Assembly (NCBI RefSeq): GCF_023101085.1 | Contig: NZ_CP064703.1 | Location: forward strand, 4,712,001 to 4,776,000 | Direction of reading: 5' to 3' | Source of the DNA: Bradyrhizobium sp. 170 | GTDB lineage: Bacteria > Pseudomonadota > Alphaproteobacteria > Rhizobiales > Xanthobacteraceae | Length of the DNA: 64,000 nucleotides | Shown here: piece after piece, positions 4,825 to 52,887 of the stretch | How the letters are laid out: each line of letters opens with the position of its first letter | Position numbering within the stretch: position 1 is the stretch's first letter | The notes under the pieces: model-generated | Database searches by the model: none | The model's input: the letters and a program-made list of their open reading frames with translations, nothing else | What the model was told of the DNA's origin: nothing | Translations under genes and position numbers: made by a program

Positions 4825-4905
4825 ATGATCAAGATCGCCGCCAACAGCTTTTGGTATTTTAGCTACGACAGCTCGCTGGCGGTGGGAGGATCGCGCTCAA
4901 TCTGA
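4825..4905 (+). CDS. Leader peptide rich in aromatic residues (attenuator control peptide)
   Basis: A 26-residue ORF runs from ATG 4825 to TGA 4905. Codons 9-14 (4849-4866) read Phe-Trp-Tyr-Phe-Ser-Tyr, so all three aromatic amino acids are represented in six codons. The codons lie between pairing segments 1 and 2 of the attenuator, where a stalled ribosome would matter. No Shine-Dalgarno is visible, consistent with leaderless translation. The peptide itself has no recognisable domain. Its position just before the first enzyme of the shikimate pathway makes a regulatory role the simplest reading. Confidence 0.8.
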   Translation: MIKIAANSFWYFSYDSSLAVGGSRSI

Positions 4906-4956
4906 CGAATTGAAGCCAAGATGTCCGAACAGCCGCCAAACCTGGCGGCTTTTTTA
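4837..4956 (+). promoter_or_regulatory. Ribosome-mediated transcription attenuator of DAHP synthase
   Basis: Four segments can pair in alternative ways. Segment 1 (CCGCCA at 4838-4843 plus AGCT at 4846-4849) pairs with segment 2 (AGCT at 4870-4873 plus TGGCGG at 4877-4882). Segment 2 can instead pair with segment 3 (CCGCCA at 4933-4938), with one extra G-U pair. Segment 3 is also the left arm of the terminator. A ribosome stalled on the Phe/Trp/Tyr codons would cover segment 1, free segment 2, and prevent the terminator. Read-through is therefore expected when charged aromatic tRNAs are scarce. Confidence 0.8.
4931..4956 (+). terminator. Intrinsic terminator of the aromatic attenuator
   Basis: A perfect 8-bp stem, AGCCGCCA / TGGCGGCT, with the loop AACC is followed at once by six T residues. 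It lies 38 bp before the DAHP synthase start and 25 bp after the leader-peptide stop. Confidence 0.85.
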
Positions 4957-4993
4957 TTGGCCGGCAGGTTCCCAACGAACAGGAGCCACAGCC

Positions 4994-6082
4994 GTGTTGA
5001 GCACCACCGACGATCTTCGAATTAGCGAACTGAAAGAGCTGAGTACGCCGCAGGAGGTGATGGGTGAGATCCCGCGCACCTTGACCGCGACGCGGGTGGT
5101 GATGGCGGCGCGCAACGCCATCCACGCCATCCTGAACGGGACCGACGACCGCCTGCTGGTCGTCGTTGGCCCCTGCTCCGTCCACGATCCCGTCGCCGCC
5201 GTGGAGTACGCCGAGCGCCTCGCCGCCTTGCGCGAAACGCTTGCCGACCGCCTCGAGATCGTGATGCGCGTCTATTTCGAGAAGCCGCGTACCACCGTCG
5301 GATGGAAGGGGCTGATCAACGATCCCGCCCTCGACGGCAGTTTCGACATCAACAAGGGGCTGCGGCTGGCGCGCAACGTGCTGTCGGCGGTGAACAATCT
5401 CGGCCTGCCGGCGGGAACGGAATTCCTCGACATGACGACGCCGCAATACATCGCCGACCTGATGGCATGGGCGGCGATTGGCGCGCGCACGACCGAGAGC
5501 CAGATCCATCGCGAGCTGGCTTCCGGGCTGTCGTGCCCGGTCGGCTTCAAGAACGGCACCGATGGCAATGTCCGCATCGCCGCAGACGCGGTGAAGTCGG
5601 CCTCGCATCCGCACCATTTCATGGCGGTGACCAAGGGCGGACGCTCGGCGATCGCGGCAACCACCGGCAACGAGGACTGTCACATCATCCTGCGCGGCGG
5701 CCACACGCCGAACTACGACCGGGACAGCGTCGATGCCGCGTGCGTCGAACTTGTCCGCGCCGGCGTGGCGCCGCGGATCATGATCGACACCAGCCACGCC
5801 AACAGCAACAAGAAGCCGGAGAACCAGCCGCTGGTCGTGGCCGACATCGCGCAGCAGATTTCGAACGGCGAGCAACGGATCACCGGCGTCATGATCGAGA
5901 GCAATCTGGTCGCCGGCCGCCAGGACGTGGTGCCGGGCAAGCCGTTGACCTATGGCCAGAGCATCACCGACGGCTGCATCGACTGGGATACGACGGTGTC
6001 CGCGCTGAACGTGCTGGCCGATGCGGTGGCGACGCGGAGGAACGCGCCATCGCGCGAGTTCGGGGAAGAGCGTTCGGCCTAG
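4994..6082 (+). CDS. aroG: 3-deoxy-7-phosphoheptulonate synthase (DAHP synthase, class I)
   Basis: A 362-residue enzyme of the AroF/AroG/AroH type. It condenses phosphoenolpyruvate with erythrose 4-phosphate, the first step of aromatic amino acid synthesis. Visible family motifs include VVGPCSVHDP near residue 57, GLINDPALDGSFDINKGL near 105, GTEFLDMTTPQYIADL near 140, and GFKNGTDGN near 183. The length matches class I enzymes. GTG at 4994 is chosen because AGGAG lies about ten bases upstream; frames extending further up would run into the terminator. The upstream attenuator indicates control by charged aromatic tRNAs, in addition to the usual feedback inhibition of the family, which the sequence alone cannot define. 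Confidence 0.93.
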   Translation: MLSTTDDLRISELKELSTPQEVMGEIPRTLTATRVVMAARNAIHAILNGTDDRLLVVVGPCSVHDPVAAVEYAERLAALRETLADRLEIVMRVYFEKPRTTVGWKGLINDPALDGSFDINKGLRLARNVLSAVNNLGLPAGTEFLDMTTPQYIADLMAWAAIGARTTESQIHRELASGLSCPVGFKNGTDGNVRIAADAVKSASHPHHFMAVTKGGRSAIAATTGNEDCHIILRGGHTPNYDRDSVDAACVELVRAGVAPRIMIDTSHANSNKKPENQPLVVADIAQQISNGEQRITGVMIESNLVAGRQDVVPGKPLTYGQSITDGCIDWDTTVSALNVLADAVATRRNAPSREFGEERSA

Positions 6083-39554: not shown

Positions 39555-40166
39555 TCAGCCGCCTTTTCGAGCCACGACGAACAACATCGACGCTATCTTG
39601 TCGTCGAACCCTCTGACTTCGCCGCTCTCGATCGACAGCGAGTTCCACCGGCCCGCTTTGGCATAGGTCGCGTGCAGCCAGTCCGGCGACGGGTAATTGT
39701 AATAGCGATTGAGCGTATCACGGCCGCCGCCGTCGCCGGCCTTGTAGCTGGCGTAGAAGACGCCCGCAGGCCTCAGCGCGCGCCAGATCCGCGCAAGAAC
39801 ATCCGCGAGCTCCGGCCTCGGCACATGAAGCAGACAGGCATTGGCCCAGACGGCGTCATAGGCATCGACCTCGTCGAGTTCATGAAACAGCAGCGTCTCG
39901 ACCGTGCGGCCGAGATGCTTTGACGCGACATCAGCCATTTCCGGCGATCCGTCGGTCGCGCGCACCTCGAATCCACGCGCCAGCATTTCCGCGGTGTCGC
40001 CACCAGCGCCGCAGCCGAGTTCGAGGATGGAAGCGCCCGGCGGAAGCGGCGCCAGAAACGCCGTCAACCGCGCCTGGCGCGAGGTGAACGTGCGCCTGGC
40101 ATAGGCCTCGGCGTTGCCGCGATAGAACTGCAGCGTCTCCTCGTCCACCGCAGCACCTCGTGTCAT
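39555..40166 (-). CDS. Class I SAM-dependent methyltransferase
   Basis: A 203-residue protein with the SAM-binding motif ILELGCGAGGDTAEML near residue 47, an acidic end of strand 2 (VRATDGSPEM), and AVWANACLLHVPRPEL. The target is unknown. Its ATG overlaps the argC stop by 4 bp (ATGA), indicating translational coupling in the argC operon. The extreme N-terminus (VDEETLQFYRGNAEAYA) recurs as a stub between the two argC genes. Confidence 0.85.
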   Translation of the reverse strand: MTRGAAVDEETLQFYRGNAEAYARRTFTSRQARLTAFLAPLPPGASILELGCGAGGDTAEMLARGFEVRATDGSPEMADVASKHLGRTVETLLFHELDEVDAYDAVWANACLLHVPRPELADVLARIWRALRPAGVFYASYKAGDGGGRDTLNRYYNYPSPDWLHATYAKAGRWNSLSIESGEVRGFDDKIASMLFVVARKGG

Positions 40167-41212
40167 GGGAACAGCGCGATCTGTTCCAGCCCCGCCGTCT
40201 CGGGGAGCCCGAACATCAGGTTCATGTTCTGGATCGCCTGCCCGGCCGAACCCTTCACCAGATTATCGAGCGTGGAAATCACGATCGCCCGGTTCTTGAT
40301 GCGGTCGGCGACGACGCCGATCTGCACATAGTTGGAGCCGCGCACGTTCTGGGTTTGCGGCAGCACGCCCTTCTTCGCGACATGCACGAACGGTTCGTCA
40401 GCGTAAGCCTTCTCCAGCGCGGTGCGCAGATCGTCCGGCGTTGCGCCGTTGAGCTTGACGTAGGACGTGCAGAGTTCGCCGCGCGCCATTGGGATAAGAT
40501 GCGGCGTGAAGTTGATCGTCACCGCGGAGCCCGCGGCGACGCCGATCTCCTGCTCGATCTCGGGCGCGTGACGGTGGGTGCCGACCGAATAGGGCGACAG
40601 CCCCTCGCCCGCCTCGCTGAACAGCGTGTTCTGCTTCAATCCGCGCCCGGCGCCGGTGACACCCGATTTCGCGTCGATGACGATATCGTCGACGTCGATC
40701 AATTTGGCTTTCGCAAGCGGCACCAGCGCGAGCAGCGCCGCGGTCGGATAGCAGCCGGGACAAGCGACCAGCCGCGCGGAGGTGATCTTCTCCCGGTAGA
40801 ACTCGGTGAGGCCATACACGGCTTCGCCCTGCAGCTCGAGCGCCCGGTGCTCGTGGCCGTACCATTGCGCATAGGTGTCCTTGTCGCGCAGCCGGAAGTC
40901 GGCCGACATGTCGAGAACCTTGATCTTCGGGTTGGCCTTGAGGACGGCGGCGATGATCTCCTGCGTGGTGCCGTGCGGCAGCCCGCAGAACACCGCGTCG
41001 AGGCTGGTCCAGTCGACCTTTTCCCATTCGACCAGCTTCGGCAGATCCAGCATGAAGAAGTGCGGAAACACCTCGCCCATCGACTTGCCGGCGTGGGTAT
41101 TGGCTGTCAGAGCCGTGATCTCGGCATTCGGATGCCGCGCCAACAGGCGCACCGCGTCGGCTCCGGTGTAGCCGGAGGCGCCGAGAATGCCGATCTTCTT
41201 CGAGCTCATCAC
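40163..41212 (-). CDS. argC: N-acetyl-gamma-glutamyl-phosphate reductase (longer type)
   Basis: A 349-residue enzyme of arginine biosynthesis that reduces N-acetylglutamyl phosphate to the semialdehyde with NADPH. GILGASGYTGADAVRLL is the NADP-binding motif. The catalytic Cys lies in ACPGCYPTAALLAL, and GTHRHAPEIEQE is the substrate region with the conserved His. It belongs to the longer ArgC subfamily. It is the third gene of the operon and overlaps the methyltransferase start by 4 bp. A second, divergent argC lies directly upstream. Confidence 0.93.
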   Translation of the reverse strand: MMSSKKIGILGASGYTGADAVRLLARHPNAEITALTANTHAGKSMGEVFPHFFMLDLPKLVEWEKVDWTSLDAVFCGLPHGTTQEIIAAVLKANPKIKVLDMSADFRLRDKDTYAQWYGHEHRALELQGEAVYGLTEFYREKITSARLVACPGCYPTAALLALVPLAKAKLIDVDDIVIDAKSGVTGAGRGLKQNTLFSEAGEGLSPYSVGTHRHAPEIEQEIGVAAGSAVTINFTPHLIPMARGELCTSYVKLNGATPDDLRTALEKAYADEPFVHVAKKGVLPQTQNVRGSNYVQIGVVADRIKNRAIVISTLDNLVKGSAGQAIQNMNLMFGLPETAGLEQIALFP

Positions 41213-41319: not shown

Positions 41320-42312
41320 CTATTTCTCGGCAAGGCCCAGCATCAGCCGCATGTTCTGCACGGCGGCACCCGAGGCACCCTTGCCCAGATTGTCGAGCCG
41401 CGCGACCAGAACCGCCTGACGATGTTTCTCGCTGGCAAAGACATAAAGCTCCAGCTTGTTGGTCTCGTTGAGCGCCTCGGGCTCGAGCCGGCCGCCCTTG
41501 GTCGCCGCGTTCTCGAGCGGCATCACCAAGACGTAGCTGCTGCCGGCGTAGCGCTTTGCCAGCGCGGCGTGCAGGTCAGCTCCATCAGGCTTGCCCGTCA
41601 GCGTGTCGAGATGCAGCGGCACCGAGACCAGCATGCCCTGCCGATAATTGCCGACCGACGGCACGAAGATCGGCCGCCGCGTCAGTTTTGAGTAGAGCTG
41701 CGTCTCCGGCAGATGCTTGTGCTCGAAGCCGAGACCATACAATTCGAAGGACGGCGCGCTGCCATCCTCGAAACTTGCGATCATCGACTTGCCGCCGCCC
41801 GAATAGCCGCTCACCGCGTTGATGGTGACGGGATAGTCCGCAGGCACGAGCCCCGCATCGACCAGCGGCCGCAGCAGCGCAATGCCGCCGGTCGGATAGC
41901 AGCCGGGATTGGAGACCTTTTGGGCTGCCCGTATCTTGTCGGCCTGGTCAGGCGTAAGCTCCGGAAAGCCGTAAGCCCAGTCGCTGGCGACCCGGAATGC
42001 GGTCGACGCGTCGAGCACCTTGGGGGCCGAAGCGCCCATGCTGTCGATCAAGGTTACGGTTTCCTTCGCCGCATCGTCAGGCAGGCAGAGGATGACGAGG
42101 TCCACCTCCTCCATCAGCGCGCGCTTGGCGCCCGCATCCTTGCGCTTCTCCTCGGCGATGTTTTTCACCACGACGTCGTTCTGCAGCCGAAGGCGCTCCG
42201 CAATGCCGAGCCCCGTCGTTCCGGATGCGCCGTCAACGAACACGGCGGGCTTGGTCGCGGCGCCGGCGGTCTTGTCGGTGATCTTGGGCTGGTGACCGTC
42301 GGTGAGGGTCAT
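41320..42312 (-). CDS. argC: N-acetyl-gamma-glutamyl-phosphate reductase (shorter type)
   Basis: A 330-residue ArgC of the shorter subfamily. VFVDGASGTTGLGIAERL is the nucleotide-binding motif, and SNPGCYPTGGIALLRPL carries the catalytic Cys. GLGFEHKHLPE and VPLHLDTL are characteristic of this subfamily. It catalyses the same step as the downstream argC but the two are clearly different in sequence, so they are not recent duplicates. Its ATG overlaps the stop of the PaiB-like gene by 4 bp. The upstream leader has four Arg codons. Confidence 0.92.
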   Translation of the reverse strand: MTLTDGHQPKITDKTAGAATKPAVFVDGASGTTGLGIAERLRLQNDVVVKNIAEEKRKDAGAKRALMEEVDLVILCLPDDAAKETVTLIDSMGASAPKVLDASTAFRVASDWAYGFPELTPDQADKIRAAQKVSNPGCYPTGGIALLRPLVDAGLVPADYPVTINAVSGYSGGGKSMIASFEDGSAPSFELYGLGFEHKHLPETQLYSKLTRRPIFVPSVGNYRQGMLVSVPLHLDTLTGKPDGADLHAALAKRYAGSSYVLVMPLENAATKGGRLEPEALNETNKLELYVFASEKHRQAVLVARLDNLGKGASGAAVQNMRLMLGLAEK

Positions 42313-42995
42313 GGCACGGTCCTTTCGAGCTGGTTCGTTTCGTCGGCAAAGGCCTCTTGGTTTGCAAACGCGTTGGGCCGCGCCTCTCTCATCAAATGCG
42401 CGATCTGCTGCGCGTAGGCGTCGGCTTGCGAGGCCAGCGACCCCGCAACCGCCGCATAGTCGGTCTCGGACTTGTGCTGGTTCAGCTTGAAGCTGCCCTC
42501 CACCTCTTCAACCGTCATCTCAAGGCCCACAATCGCTTTCTTCATCGCTTCCAGCCGCCCGGCCGTCATCTTCGACGACAGCCACGGCTTTTTCGGCAAG
42601 AGCCGCTCCTCGAACTTGGCGCTGAGCGTCTCGATCTGCTCGGCGAGTTCGCCCTCGGACATCGCTCGCACCGGGCCGGTCAGGTGCACCGCCTGATAGA
42701 GCCAGGTCGGCACTTGATCGGGCGAGACGTACCAGTCAGGCGACACATAGGCATCCGCGCCGTTGACGGCCAGCAGCCAGGACGTCGTCCCGTCCGCGAG
42801 CTTTATCAGCGGATTGTGACGCGCGACGTGAAAGGCTGCGCGCGGCGTGCCGTCATTGGCCGAGGTCAGATAGAACGGCAGCGACGAGGCGATCGGCTTG
42901 TTGCCGTCCCACGCGCAGAAAAGCCCAAAGCCGCGCGCTTCCGCGAACGCGAGGCTCGCGGCGCGGTCGGACTTGAACGGTGGAGGCGTATACAT
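42309..42995 (-). CDS. PaiB-like FMN-binding protein
   Basis: A 228-residue protein of the PaiB / FMN-binding split-barrel family. It opens MYTPPPFKSDRAASLAFAEA and contains IASSLPFYLTSANDGTPRA, AFHVARHNPLIKL and PTWLYQAVHLTGPVRAM. In Bacillus PaiB is linked with the polyamine acetyltransferase PaiA and negative regulation. Being the first gene of an arginine-biosynthesis operon hints at arginine or polyamine metabolism here. That link is inferred from context only. It overlaps argC by 4 bp. Confidence 0.85.
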   Translation of the reverse strand: MYTPPPFKSDRAASLAFAEARGFGLFCAWDGNKPIASSLPFYLTSANDGTPRAAFHVARHNPLIKLADGTTSWLLAVNGADAYVSPDWYVSPDQVPTWLYQAVHLTGPVRAMSEGELAEQIETLSAKFEERLLPKKPWLSSKMTAGRLEAMKKAIVGLEMTVEEVEGSFKLNQHKSETDYAAVAGSLASQADAYAQQIAHLMREARPNAFANQEAFADETNQLERTVP

Positions 42996-43043
42996 CTCAA
43001 ACTCCTGCTTGACGTAGGAGCCGCCAGTTCAGACCGCGTTTTC

Positions 43044-43120
43044 TGGAAAAGGAAGAAGCCGCGGGACCCGATCCGGCGGCAGGGGCGACGATCTCAAACG
43101 CAGACGTCCGCCCATACCGC
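43044..43120 (-). promoter_or_regulatory. Predicted arginine attenuator with terminator, upstream of paiB-like/argC operon
   Basis: Segment 1 is the CGC run itself (minus strand). Segment 2, GCGG-TAT-GGGCGG, covers 43108-43120. Segment 3, CGCCC-CTG-CCGC, covers 43076-43087. Segment 2 pairs with either. Segment 3 overlaps the left arm of a hairpin (43058-43080) with 5 + 3 bp, one mismatch and loop TCGGG, followed by TTCTTCCTTTTCC. A ribosome stalled at the Arg codons would free segment 2 and block the terminator. The T-tract is interrupted and the region is very G+C-rich, so this is less certain than the aromatic attenuator. Confidence 0.6.
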
Positions 43121-43168
43121 GATGATGCGGCGGCGGCGAGCGATGGTCATGGTCGAAGCGATAGTCAT
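43094..43168 (-). CDS. Leader peptide with four consecutive Arg codons
   Basis: A 24-residue ORF (ATG 43168 to TGA 43094) begins MTIASTMTIARRRRIIAV. The four Arg codons are all CGC and coincide with pairing segment 1. The ATG lies at the predicted transcription start, as in the aromatic leader. The ORF ends about 100 bp before the start of an operon with two argC genes. Confidence 0.6.
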   Translation of the reverse strand: MTIASTMTIARRRRIIAVWADVCV

Positions 43169-43204
43169 GGGCGCGGCTATAAGGCCGCGCCCGCCGGACG
43201 TCAA
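43169..43204 (-). promoter_or_regulatory. Predicted promoter and overlapping dyad for the arginine leader
   Basis: On the minus strand TTGACG (43199-43204) and TATAGC (43176-43181) are separated by exactly 17 bp, with 7 bp to the leader ATG. A perfect 9-bp inverted repeat, GGGCGCGGC / GCCGCGCCC (43169-43177 and 43184-43192), covers the -10 region and could be an operator. Confidence 0.7.
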
Positions 43205-43235
43205 GTTATGACTGCCATTCCGGCAGGGTCTGGCG

Positions 43236-44225
43236 TCAGATCACCGGATTCCACGGAGCCGGGATCAGCCGGTAACCGTTGCCGTCCTTCTCGACGAAGC
43301 CATTGGCCGGGAACGGATAGTGGAAGCCCTGGACCCGCATCTTGTCGGCGACCAGCATGTCGTAGACCCGTCGGCGGGTCTTTTCCGCCAGCGCCGGATC
43401 CTGGTCGAACATCAGGTGCCAGCCCGGATTGGAGACGAACAGCGCCGGCAGGTTGGTGACGTCGGACTGGATGAACACCTTGTCGGAGCCCGACGACAGG
43501 GCGTAGGAGGTGTGGCCCGGCGTGTGGCCGATGGTTTCGACCGCCGTCAGCCCCGGTGCGACTTCCTTGCCCCACTCATAGGGCGTCGCCTTCTTGTTCA
43601 GTCCCGCCTCGAACACGCGGCGGGCGTTCTTGAACACGGTCTGCATCCGCCCCTCGGGCGCACGGCTCATCTCGCCGTCATCCATGAAGTACTTCCACTC
43701 CGCCGCCGGCACGAGCACTTCGGCATTGGGGAACGCCAGCGTGTTCTCGGCGGTCAACAGGCCGTTGATGTGGTCGCCGTGGAAGTGCGAGATCACCACC
43801 ATGTCGACCGCCTTGGGGTCGAAACCCGCAGCGACCATGTTGGCGGCGAACTGTCCGACATTGCCCTTGCTCGACGCAAAGGCGGCCGCGCCGTTACCAG
43901 TGTCGACCACGACCAGCTTGCCGCCGGTGTTGATGACCAGCGGCGCGAACTGGATCGACATCTTGTCCTTCGGCATGAAGTTCTTTTCGAGCGCCGCGTT
44001 AACTTCGTCTTTCTTGACGTTGAGCACGAACGTGTCGGGCAGCGCGAAATTGTTGACGCCGTCGGAGATGGCCGTCACCTGGGCATCGCCCACCTTGTAG
44101 CGATAGAAGCTCGGCGCCTGCTTTTCCGCCACCGGCGCAGCGGCGCTGGCAGGCGCTTGCGGCAACAGCGGCGTGGCGGCGAGCGCAGCGGCTCCGGCGA
44201 GTGCGTGACGACGTGTCAATTCCAT
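43236..44225 (-). CDS. MBL-fold metallo-hydrolase with Tat signal
   Basis: A 329-residue protein. The N-terminus LTRRHALAGAAALAATPLLP is a twin-arginine signal, so it is exported folded to the periplasm. The metallo-beta-lactamase fold has HFHGDH at 147-152, with later metal ligands in GHTPGHTSY and IQSDVTNLPAL. Relatives include lactonases and other hydrolases; the substrate is unknown. It ends about 30 bp before the -35 element of the arginine leader promoter on the same strand. Confidence 0.88.
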   Translation of the reverse strand: MELTRRHALAGAAALAATPLLPQAPASAAAPVAEKQAPSFYRYKVGDAQVTAISDGVNNFALPDTFVLNVKKDEVNAALEKNFMPKDKMSIQFAPLVINTGGKLVVVDTGNGAAAFASSKGNVGQFAANMVAAGFDPKAVDMVVISHFHGDHINGLLTAENTLAFPNAEVLVPAAEWKYFMDDGEMSRAPEGRMQTVFKNARRVFEAGLNKKATPYEWGKEVAPGLTAVETIGHTPGHTSYALSSGSDKVFIQSDVTNLPALFVSNPGWHLMFDQDPALAEKTRRRVYDMLVADKMRVQGFHYPFPANGFVEKDGNGYRLIPAPWNPVI

Positions 44226-52695: not shown

Positions 52696-52887
52696 CGCTC
52701 GCGCTCCTTAATATTCAAAACCAGTTCGGCGGGAGATTAAAATGCCCGACGCCGGCGGCGAAGCGCCATCTGCCAACTAATTCGTCATCAACGAAGGACA
52801 AGTCTACCTTATCTCCTTAGGTTGTCGCTTCACCACAGCCACAACTACCATATGCACGATAATTTTGCCTCGGAAAGGGTGTGAGCC

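Follow-up and report, generated by a model that had tools for sequence, protein, structure and literature searches.

The 64-kb window analysed here (the whole stretch of 64,000 nt from Bradyrhizobium sp. 170) carries on its minus strand a short leaderless ORF with four consecutive Arg codons ahead of a paiB-argC gene cluster. Judged from the sequence and its relatives, this leader very probably controls argC by ribosome-mediated transcription attenuation in response to the level of charged tRNA-Arg. The conservation of the promoter, the ORF, the Arg run and the hairpins is seen in the sequences, as is the link of the leader to argC, and both support this reading. An arginine attenuator had been proposed in the initial annotation; comparative data support that proposal and refine it, with argC as the target and paiB as a dispensable passenger.

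The promoter includes a -35 box TTGACG (43199..43204) and a -10 box TATAGC (43176..43181), separated by a 17-bp spacer and followed after 7 nt by the ATG at 43168; from this spacing, transcription is predicted to start at 43168 or the adjoining base. The leader-peptide ORF (MTIASTMTIARRRRIIAVWADVCV and a TGA stop, 43094..43168) has 24 codons, including CGC CGC CGC CGC (43127..43138), the candidate arginine-sensing codons, which contain pairing segment 1. Segment 2 (GCGGTATGGGCG, 43109..43120) is a partner of either segment 1 or segment 3 (CGCCCCTGCCGC, 43076..43087); the latter is the 3' arm of the putative antiterminator and has GCCGC in common with the 5' arm of a terminator-like hairpin (GCCGCCGGATCGGGTCCCGCGGC, 43058..43080), the outer pairs of which covary across the window's family. 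An interrupted, pyrimidine-rich U-tract (TTCTTCCTTTT, 43047..43057) follows directly after the hairpin, and in the window copy the stop codon of the ORF lies 16 nt upstream of the terminator arm. On the same strand follow a paiB-like gene (PF04299 FMN_bind_2, 42309..42995, start at 42995), argC_other for N-acetyl-gamma-glutamyl-phosphate reductase (TIGR01851, 41320..42312), with a start that overlaps the last 4 nt of paiB, and a second reductase gene, argC (TIGR01850, 40163..41212). The promoter and its spacing, the 24-codon ORF with four CGC codons forming segment 1, the pairing of segment 2 with segment 3 ahead of a terminator-like hairpin and the two argC genes had all been described in the initial annotation, and each was recovered at these positions.

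The spacing of the leader elements fits the textbook attenuation model, in terms of which we infer the transcription start, the stalling, the termination and the response to arginine. RNA polymerase would start at the ATG, and a ribosome would load on the 5'-terminal AUG and translate behind the polymerase. When charged tRNA-Arg is scarce, the ribosome would stall at the first CGC codons and cover segment 1, leaving segment 2 free to pair with segment 3, which would block the 3:4 terminator and allow paiB-argC to be transcribed. When arginine is plentiful, the ribosome would reach the stop codon and mask segment 2, so that the terminator would form, transcription would stop near 43047 and a leader RNA of about 120 nt would be set free; if the leader was not translated, pairings 1:2 and 3:4 would form and transcription would also end. 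Leaderless mRNAs have been described in B. japonicum, with 192 start sites mapped exactly to an annotated start codon (PMC4842269).

First-order Markov simulation of the window (60 copies) gives a chance expectation of 0.05 per 64 kb for a TTGAC promoter with a short (8-40 codons) leaderless ORF, and no simulated copy contained such an ORF with RRR. Rfam gave no match at gathering in the 64-kb window and none at E <= 1 in 42980-43260, and the leader peptide lacks any Pfam match. As the initial annotation had pointed out, the promoter geometry repeats that of another leader in the window, with identical spacing by eye and a different -35 hexamer (ATGACA/17/TATAGA/7/ATG at 4825 of the plus strand). 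This second leaderless ORF (MIKIAANSFWYFSYDSSLAVGGSRSI, 4825-4905, plus strand) lies just upstream of ORF 4910-6082, which resembles a DAHP synthase gene, and from its sequence it is a probable aromatic attenuator. The mini-ORF MALRRRRRAF (52737-52769, minus strand), with five Arg codons, was rejected as a second arginine leader; its promoter is poor, it is probably due to chance, and the gene shortly 3' of it presumably encodes an FAD-dependent oxidoreductase.

The PaiB search covered 60 relatives, including 36 of the same genus, all of which have a close PaiB orthologue (>=73% identity). The leader was found in the 36 same-genus genomes with a fixed geometry, having an invariant TTGAC (36/36), a 17-bp spacer and 7 or 8 nt to the ATG, and in every one of them the ORF has 24 or 25 codons with four or five consecutive Arg codons. 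The promoter spacer sequence varies within the genus by eye, and the DNA 5' of the -35 box differs by eye between lineages, so the shared sequence begins at about the promoter. Since the helices are nearly invariant in the genus, where changes in the antiterminator are mainly G-C to G-U on one side, the genus leaders say little about covariation. Other features were also observed in these leaders. Between the terminator and the ribosome-binding site (43020-43039), the block CGCGG..TGA..C.GGCGGC has many invariant columns in the 36 genus leaders. In many genus leaders, among them L008, L012 and L021, base pairing is possible between the first 11 nt (ATGATCAACGC) and the stop-codon region (GCGTTTGAGATCAT; alignment A1, columns 39-49 with 109-122). 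In untranslated RNA this would mask the start codon; some of the pairs are broken in the window's own leader. The palindrome GGGCGCGGC-CTTATA-GCCGCGCCC over the -10 box (43169-43192) was rejected as a functional element, its perfect copy being present by eye in only part of the genus.

For the window's family, a covariance model built from same-genus sequences alone (R1) matches 159 of 296 genomes and 31 of 47 genera (E <= 0.001). A second model (R2), made from 78 sequences, extends this to 190 of the 296 genomes and 34 of the 47 genera (E <= 0.01); the 60 fetched family loci are among its source sequences and so match by construction. Seven of the 190 matches have E values above 1e-5, and two genera are represented only by such a match. 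Among the 60 divergent family loci, which were picked from the R1 hits, the Arg run has a length of four codons in 38, three in 17, five in two, two in two and one in one, with three consecutive Arg codons missing in three loci (L089, L108 and L122). Because the CGC run is part of the model used to find these loci, its presence is to some degree a product of the selection; its reading frame was not imposed, and in all 57 loci with a CGN triplet run the run begins at one of six distances from the ATG, each a multiple of 3. The initial annotation had proposed conservation of the ORF and its Arg codons in relatives as a check and named their loss as evidence against it. With four or five Arg codons throughout the genus and at least three, in frame, in 57 of the 60 family loci, the sequences do not refute the reading.

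The 218 codons of the Arg runs in the 60 loci are CGC (173), CGT (44) and CGA (1). A single tRNA-Arg (anticodon ICG) reads these three codons, and the third-position changes between CGC and CGT keep Arg. The codons CGG, AGG and AGA, which make up one third of the Arg codons in seven genes of the window, account for none of the 218 vs ~73 expected from this usage. Pairing of segment 1 may contribute to the codon bias, and some of the Arg-codon conservation could stem from RNA structure, because segment 1 is GC-rich and paired.

Additionally, a pattern scan of named genomes gave at least 119 loci, in records titled Bradyrhizobium, Rhodopseudomonas, Afipia, Pseudolabrys and Rhodoplanes among the matches listed; the Arg runs of these loci are not independent evidence, because the pattern itself required CGC repeats. 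No promoter-linked leader ORF was found by script in two of the 119 listed loci (L265 and L305). The same leader pattern is present in one record titled Frankia sp. RB7 and two MAGs titled Rhizobium sp. Q54 (L250, L238 and L285), which are perhaps mislabelled.

Downstream of the leader, argC is present in 59 of the 60 divergent loci, and the remaining contig ends after paiB. The first arginine gene is a TIGR01850 argC with no paiB in 32 of the loci, while 14 have paiB with argC_other and 13 have paiB with argC; in 31 of the 32 loci lacking paiB, argC starts within 140 nt of the model match, and in L132 at about 0.5 kb. Three argC types thus occur behind the leader (60 loci), and because it precedes all three, with or without paiB, the leader is tied to the enzyme function, with paiB optional. 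PaiB as the regulated function was therefore rejected, argC coming next in the 32 loci without paiB, and no such leader was seen by eye at the fetched paiB paralogues and out-of-genus homologues (L038-L043). Among the pattern loci listed (at least 119), argC is downstream in 102 (86 of them with paiB), 11 have paiB only and six have <600 nt left. Regarding the tandem argC genes of different type in the window, the TIGR01850 copy (40163-41212) is 83-86% identical to several copies of family f20 and 56% identical to two others, and its identity is 82-89% with two of the 60 family loci and about 56-61% with 43 others. These uneven identities suggest horizontal transfer or an old paralogue.

Outside the window's family, an order-level model search gave matches in 60 of 397 genomes (E <= 0.05), from which 13 outside-family loci were examined, the weaker matches being left out. 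In five f20 loci, argC is immediately preceded by a leader such as MNMIATSTRRRRLILR or MNTISTSTRRRSLILR, and a sixth f20 leader (L150) was also found upstream of argC; each of the six combines RRR or RRRR with a hairpin of 7-8 bp and 6-8 consecutive T. Eight other outside-family matches (L141 and L143-L149, of which L145 is also from f20) had no argC match and were dropped. A further 80 argC upstream regions were collected from 80 of the 160 other genomes that gave a match; 79 of them lie outside the family, and one (L199) belongs to it. Some RRR ORF occurs in 17 of the 79 usable regions, vs 12 in antisense and 8.5 expected from shuffles, and none of these ORFs has the promoter pattern, which is a weak control because the script pattern also missed L150. 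Of the candidates in these regions, L150 alone looks real by eye; the RRR ORFs of L157, L194 and L202 were rejected as leaders since they lie within the end of an upstream coding gene, and the remaining RRR candidates were judged from the list alone or by eye. Within the surveyed genomes, the leader was found only in the window's family and in f20.

The alternative folds were predicted for 96 leaders (36 from the genus and 60 from the family) as minimum-energy structures with the ribosome placed either at the stop codon or at the first Arg codon. The former placement gives the terminator stem in 94 leaders; the distance from the stop codon to the terminator arm is 14-16 nt in 66 of the 96. With the ribosome stalled at the first Arg codon, at least six segment 2-3 pairs form in 83 leaders and fewer in 13, and the terminator core is still present in 27, as it is in three of the six f20 leaders; the energy of the stalled fold is on average only 1.4 SD lower than that of shuffled sequence. 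The alignment model contained the terminator core, without the antiterminator or the outer pairs. In the antiterminator, 83.4% of cells are paired (reached by 7 of 500 shuffles) vs 28-68% when it is slid, and 23 double changes were found (reached by 8 of 500). Covariation of the antiterminator is modest: of 500 shuffles, 156 reach its score and 422 its number of pairs with double changes. When its two outer pairs are included, the terminator is 90.2% paired and has 28 double-change cells, neither of which is reached by any of 500 shuffles; its main covarying pair does not form in 36 of the 74 sequences. The terminator stem is the most conserved structure, and the conservation of the hairpins, another check proposed in the initial annotation, is found ahead of argC with or without paiB.

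Other explanations were weighed against these data. The Arg-codon leader could act after transcription, a stalled ribosome altering the folding and thereby access of Rho, cleavage by RNase or the ribosome-binding site of paiB or argC, like Salmonella speF, for which two Arg codons in orf34 upstream of the gene give a precedent (PMC6386406). In the window's family the T-tract is interrupted in most leaders (mean 4.6 T per 10 nt; only 2 T in 8 of 96), and a CTCCT...AGGAG hairpin covers the paiB ribosome-binding site (43002..43020, minus strand) by eye in part of the genus, both in favor of such control; it nevertheless seems unlikely, given that the terminator stem is the structure best conserved, that the six f20 leaders have T-run terminators and that the other leaders of the genus lack, by eye, the hairpin over the ribosome-binding site. 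A role of the terminated leader mainly as a trans-acting small RNA or peptide, with cis attenuation secondary, has its model in rnTrpL of Sinorhizobium, a leaderless attenuator RNA with a peptide and trans functions (PMC10117765; PMC7298713). The position of the leader in cis before argC or paiB-argC and the unconserved peptide outside the Arg block speak against this as its main role, making it very unlikely here.

Two further explanations concern what the Arg codons do. Slightly less credence is given to arrest by the nascent peptide or a small molecule, in which the peptide, and not the charging of tRNA-Arg, would stall the ribosome on arginine or a related metabolite. The leaders partly have in common a T/A/I-rich N-terminal half and an A-A/V-W/R tail, as such arrest might predict, but the peptide diverges strongly outside the Arg block among the 60 loci, unlike arrest peptides, which have constrained residues. 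The least probable explanation is a conserved GC-rich hairpin in which the CGC repeats encode Arg by accident, the element being a constitutive terminator or spacer without arginine sensing. The genome is GC-rich and the pairing of segments 1 and 2 constrains CCGCC/CCGC; against an accident stand the run kept in frame in 57 of 57 loci at six spacings, the CGC/CGT changes that keep Arg, and the presence of argC or paiB wherever the downstream sequence is long enough.

Some of the features of the proposed tRNA-Arg attenuator have counterparts in known systems. The fungal arginine attenuator peptide (AAP, CPA1/arg-2) is likewise an arginine-responsive upstream ORF for arginine synthesis; however, it is a eukaryotic nascent-peptide arrest that acts on translation and involves neither tRNA charging nor transcription. 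In the alphaproteobacterium Sinorhizobium meliloti, rnTrpL/peTrpL similarly combines a leaderless leader ORF and an attenuator RNA before an amino-acid biosynthetic gene (PMC10117765), with tryptophan codons and trpE in place of the Arg codons and argC of the window. Consecutive Arg codons in the short upstream ORF orf34/speFL of Salmonella sense low arginine, as proposed here, whereas speFL controls ornithine decarboxylase via Rho, unfolding of the ribosome-binding site and RNase G, in gammaproteobacteria (PMC6386406). Also, speFL (DUF2618, PF10940) has a conserved HIRRT peptide core before speF, while the window peptide has no Pfam match and is followed by paiB and argC. The uORFC-8-2 cysS attenuator of Rhodobacterales is also predicted to be ribosome-mediated, with tandem codons and a terminator in alphaproteobacteria, but has Cys codons before cysS (PMC8632094). 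The betaproteobacterial carA motif (SRC-12-1) is a leader RNA candidate before a gene for arginine and pyrimidines, described as an extended hairpin in an account that does not mention an Arg-codon ORF (PMC8632094).

No arginine attenuator before argC was recognised in the open-licence PMC papers searched; a 2004 proteobacterial survey (Vitreschak et al.) could hold a prior mention. In a keyword look-up, the word argC did not occur in the main texts of PMC4842269, PMC5082802, PMC2965389, PMC1262725 and PMC4833913. The mechanism is thus known, and the arginine specificity and the argC target are apparently new within the searched papers, where no attenuator of arginine synthesis was recognised.

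Many groups of gammaproteobacteria reportedly show high conservation of the repressor ArgR, which other proteobacterial classes lack (PMC5343134). ArgR (PF01316) was above the cut-off in none of the 60 relatives, with one weaker match (G010), while eight of 14 control genomes exceed the cut-off. With no ArgR match above the cut-off, the relatives of Bradyrhizobium appear to have had no obvious candidate so far for the control of arginine synthesis, and the arginine leader is a precise one. By analogy, it could be speculated that sensing of tRNA-Arg by RRRR leaders replaces repressor control in alphaproteobacteria lacking ArgR and that, in addition, the leader of ~120 nt acts in trans as a dual-function RNA and peptide, like rnTrpL; this combination is doubtful. 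The covariance model can be converted into an annotation family. Given that many relatives retain such a leader before argC, these soil bacteria probably use ribosome stalling to detect a shortage of arginine, and if this is true, arginine would join the amino acids that are sensed by classical attenuators for their own biosynthesis.
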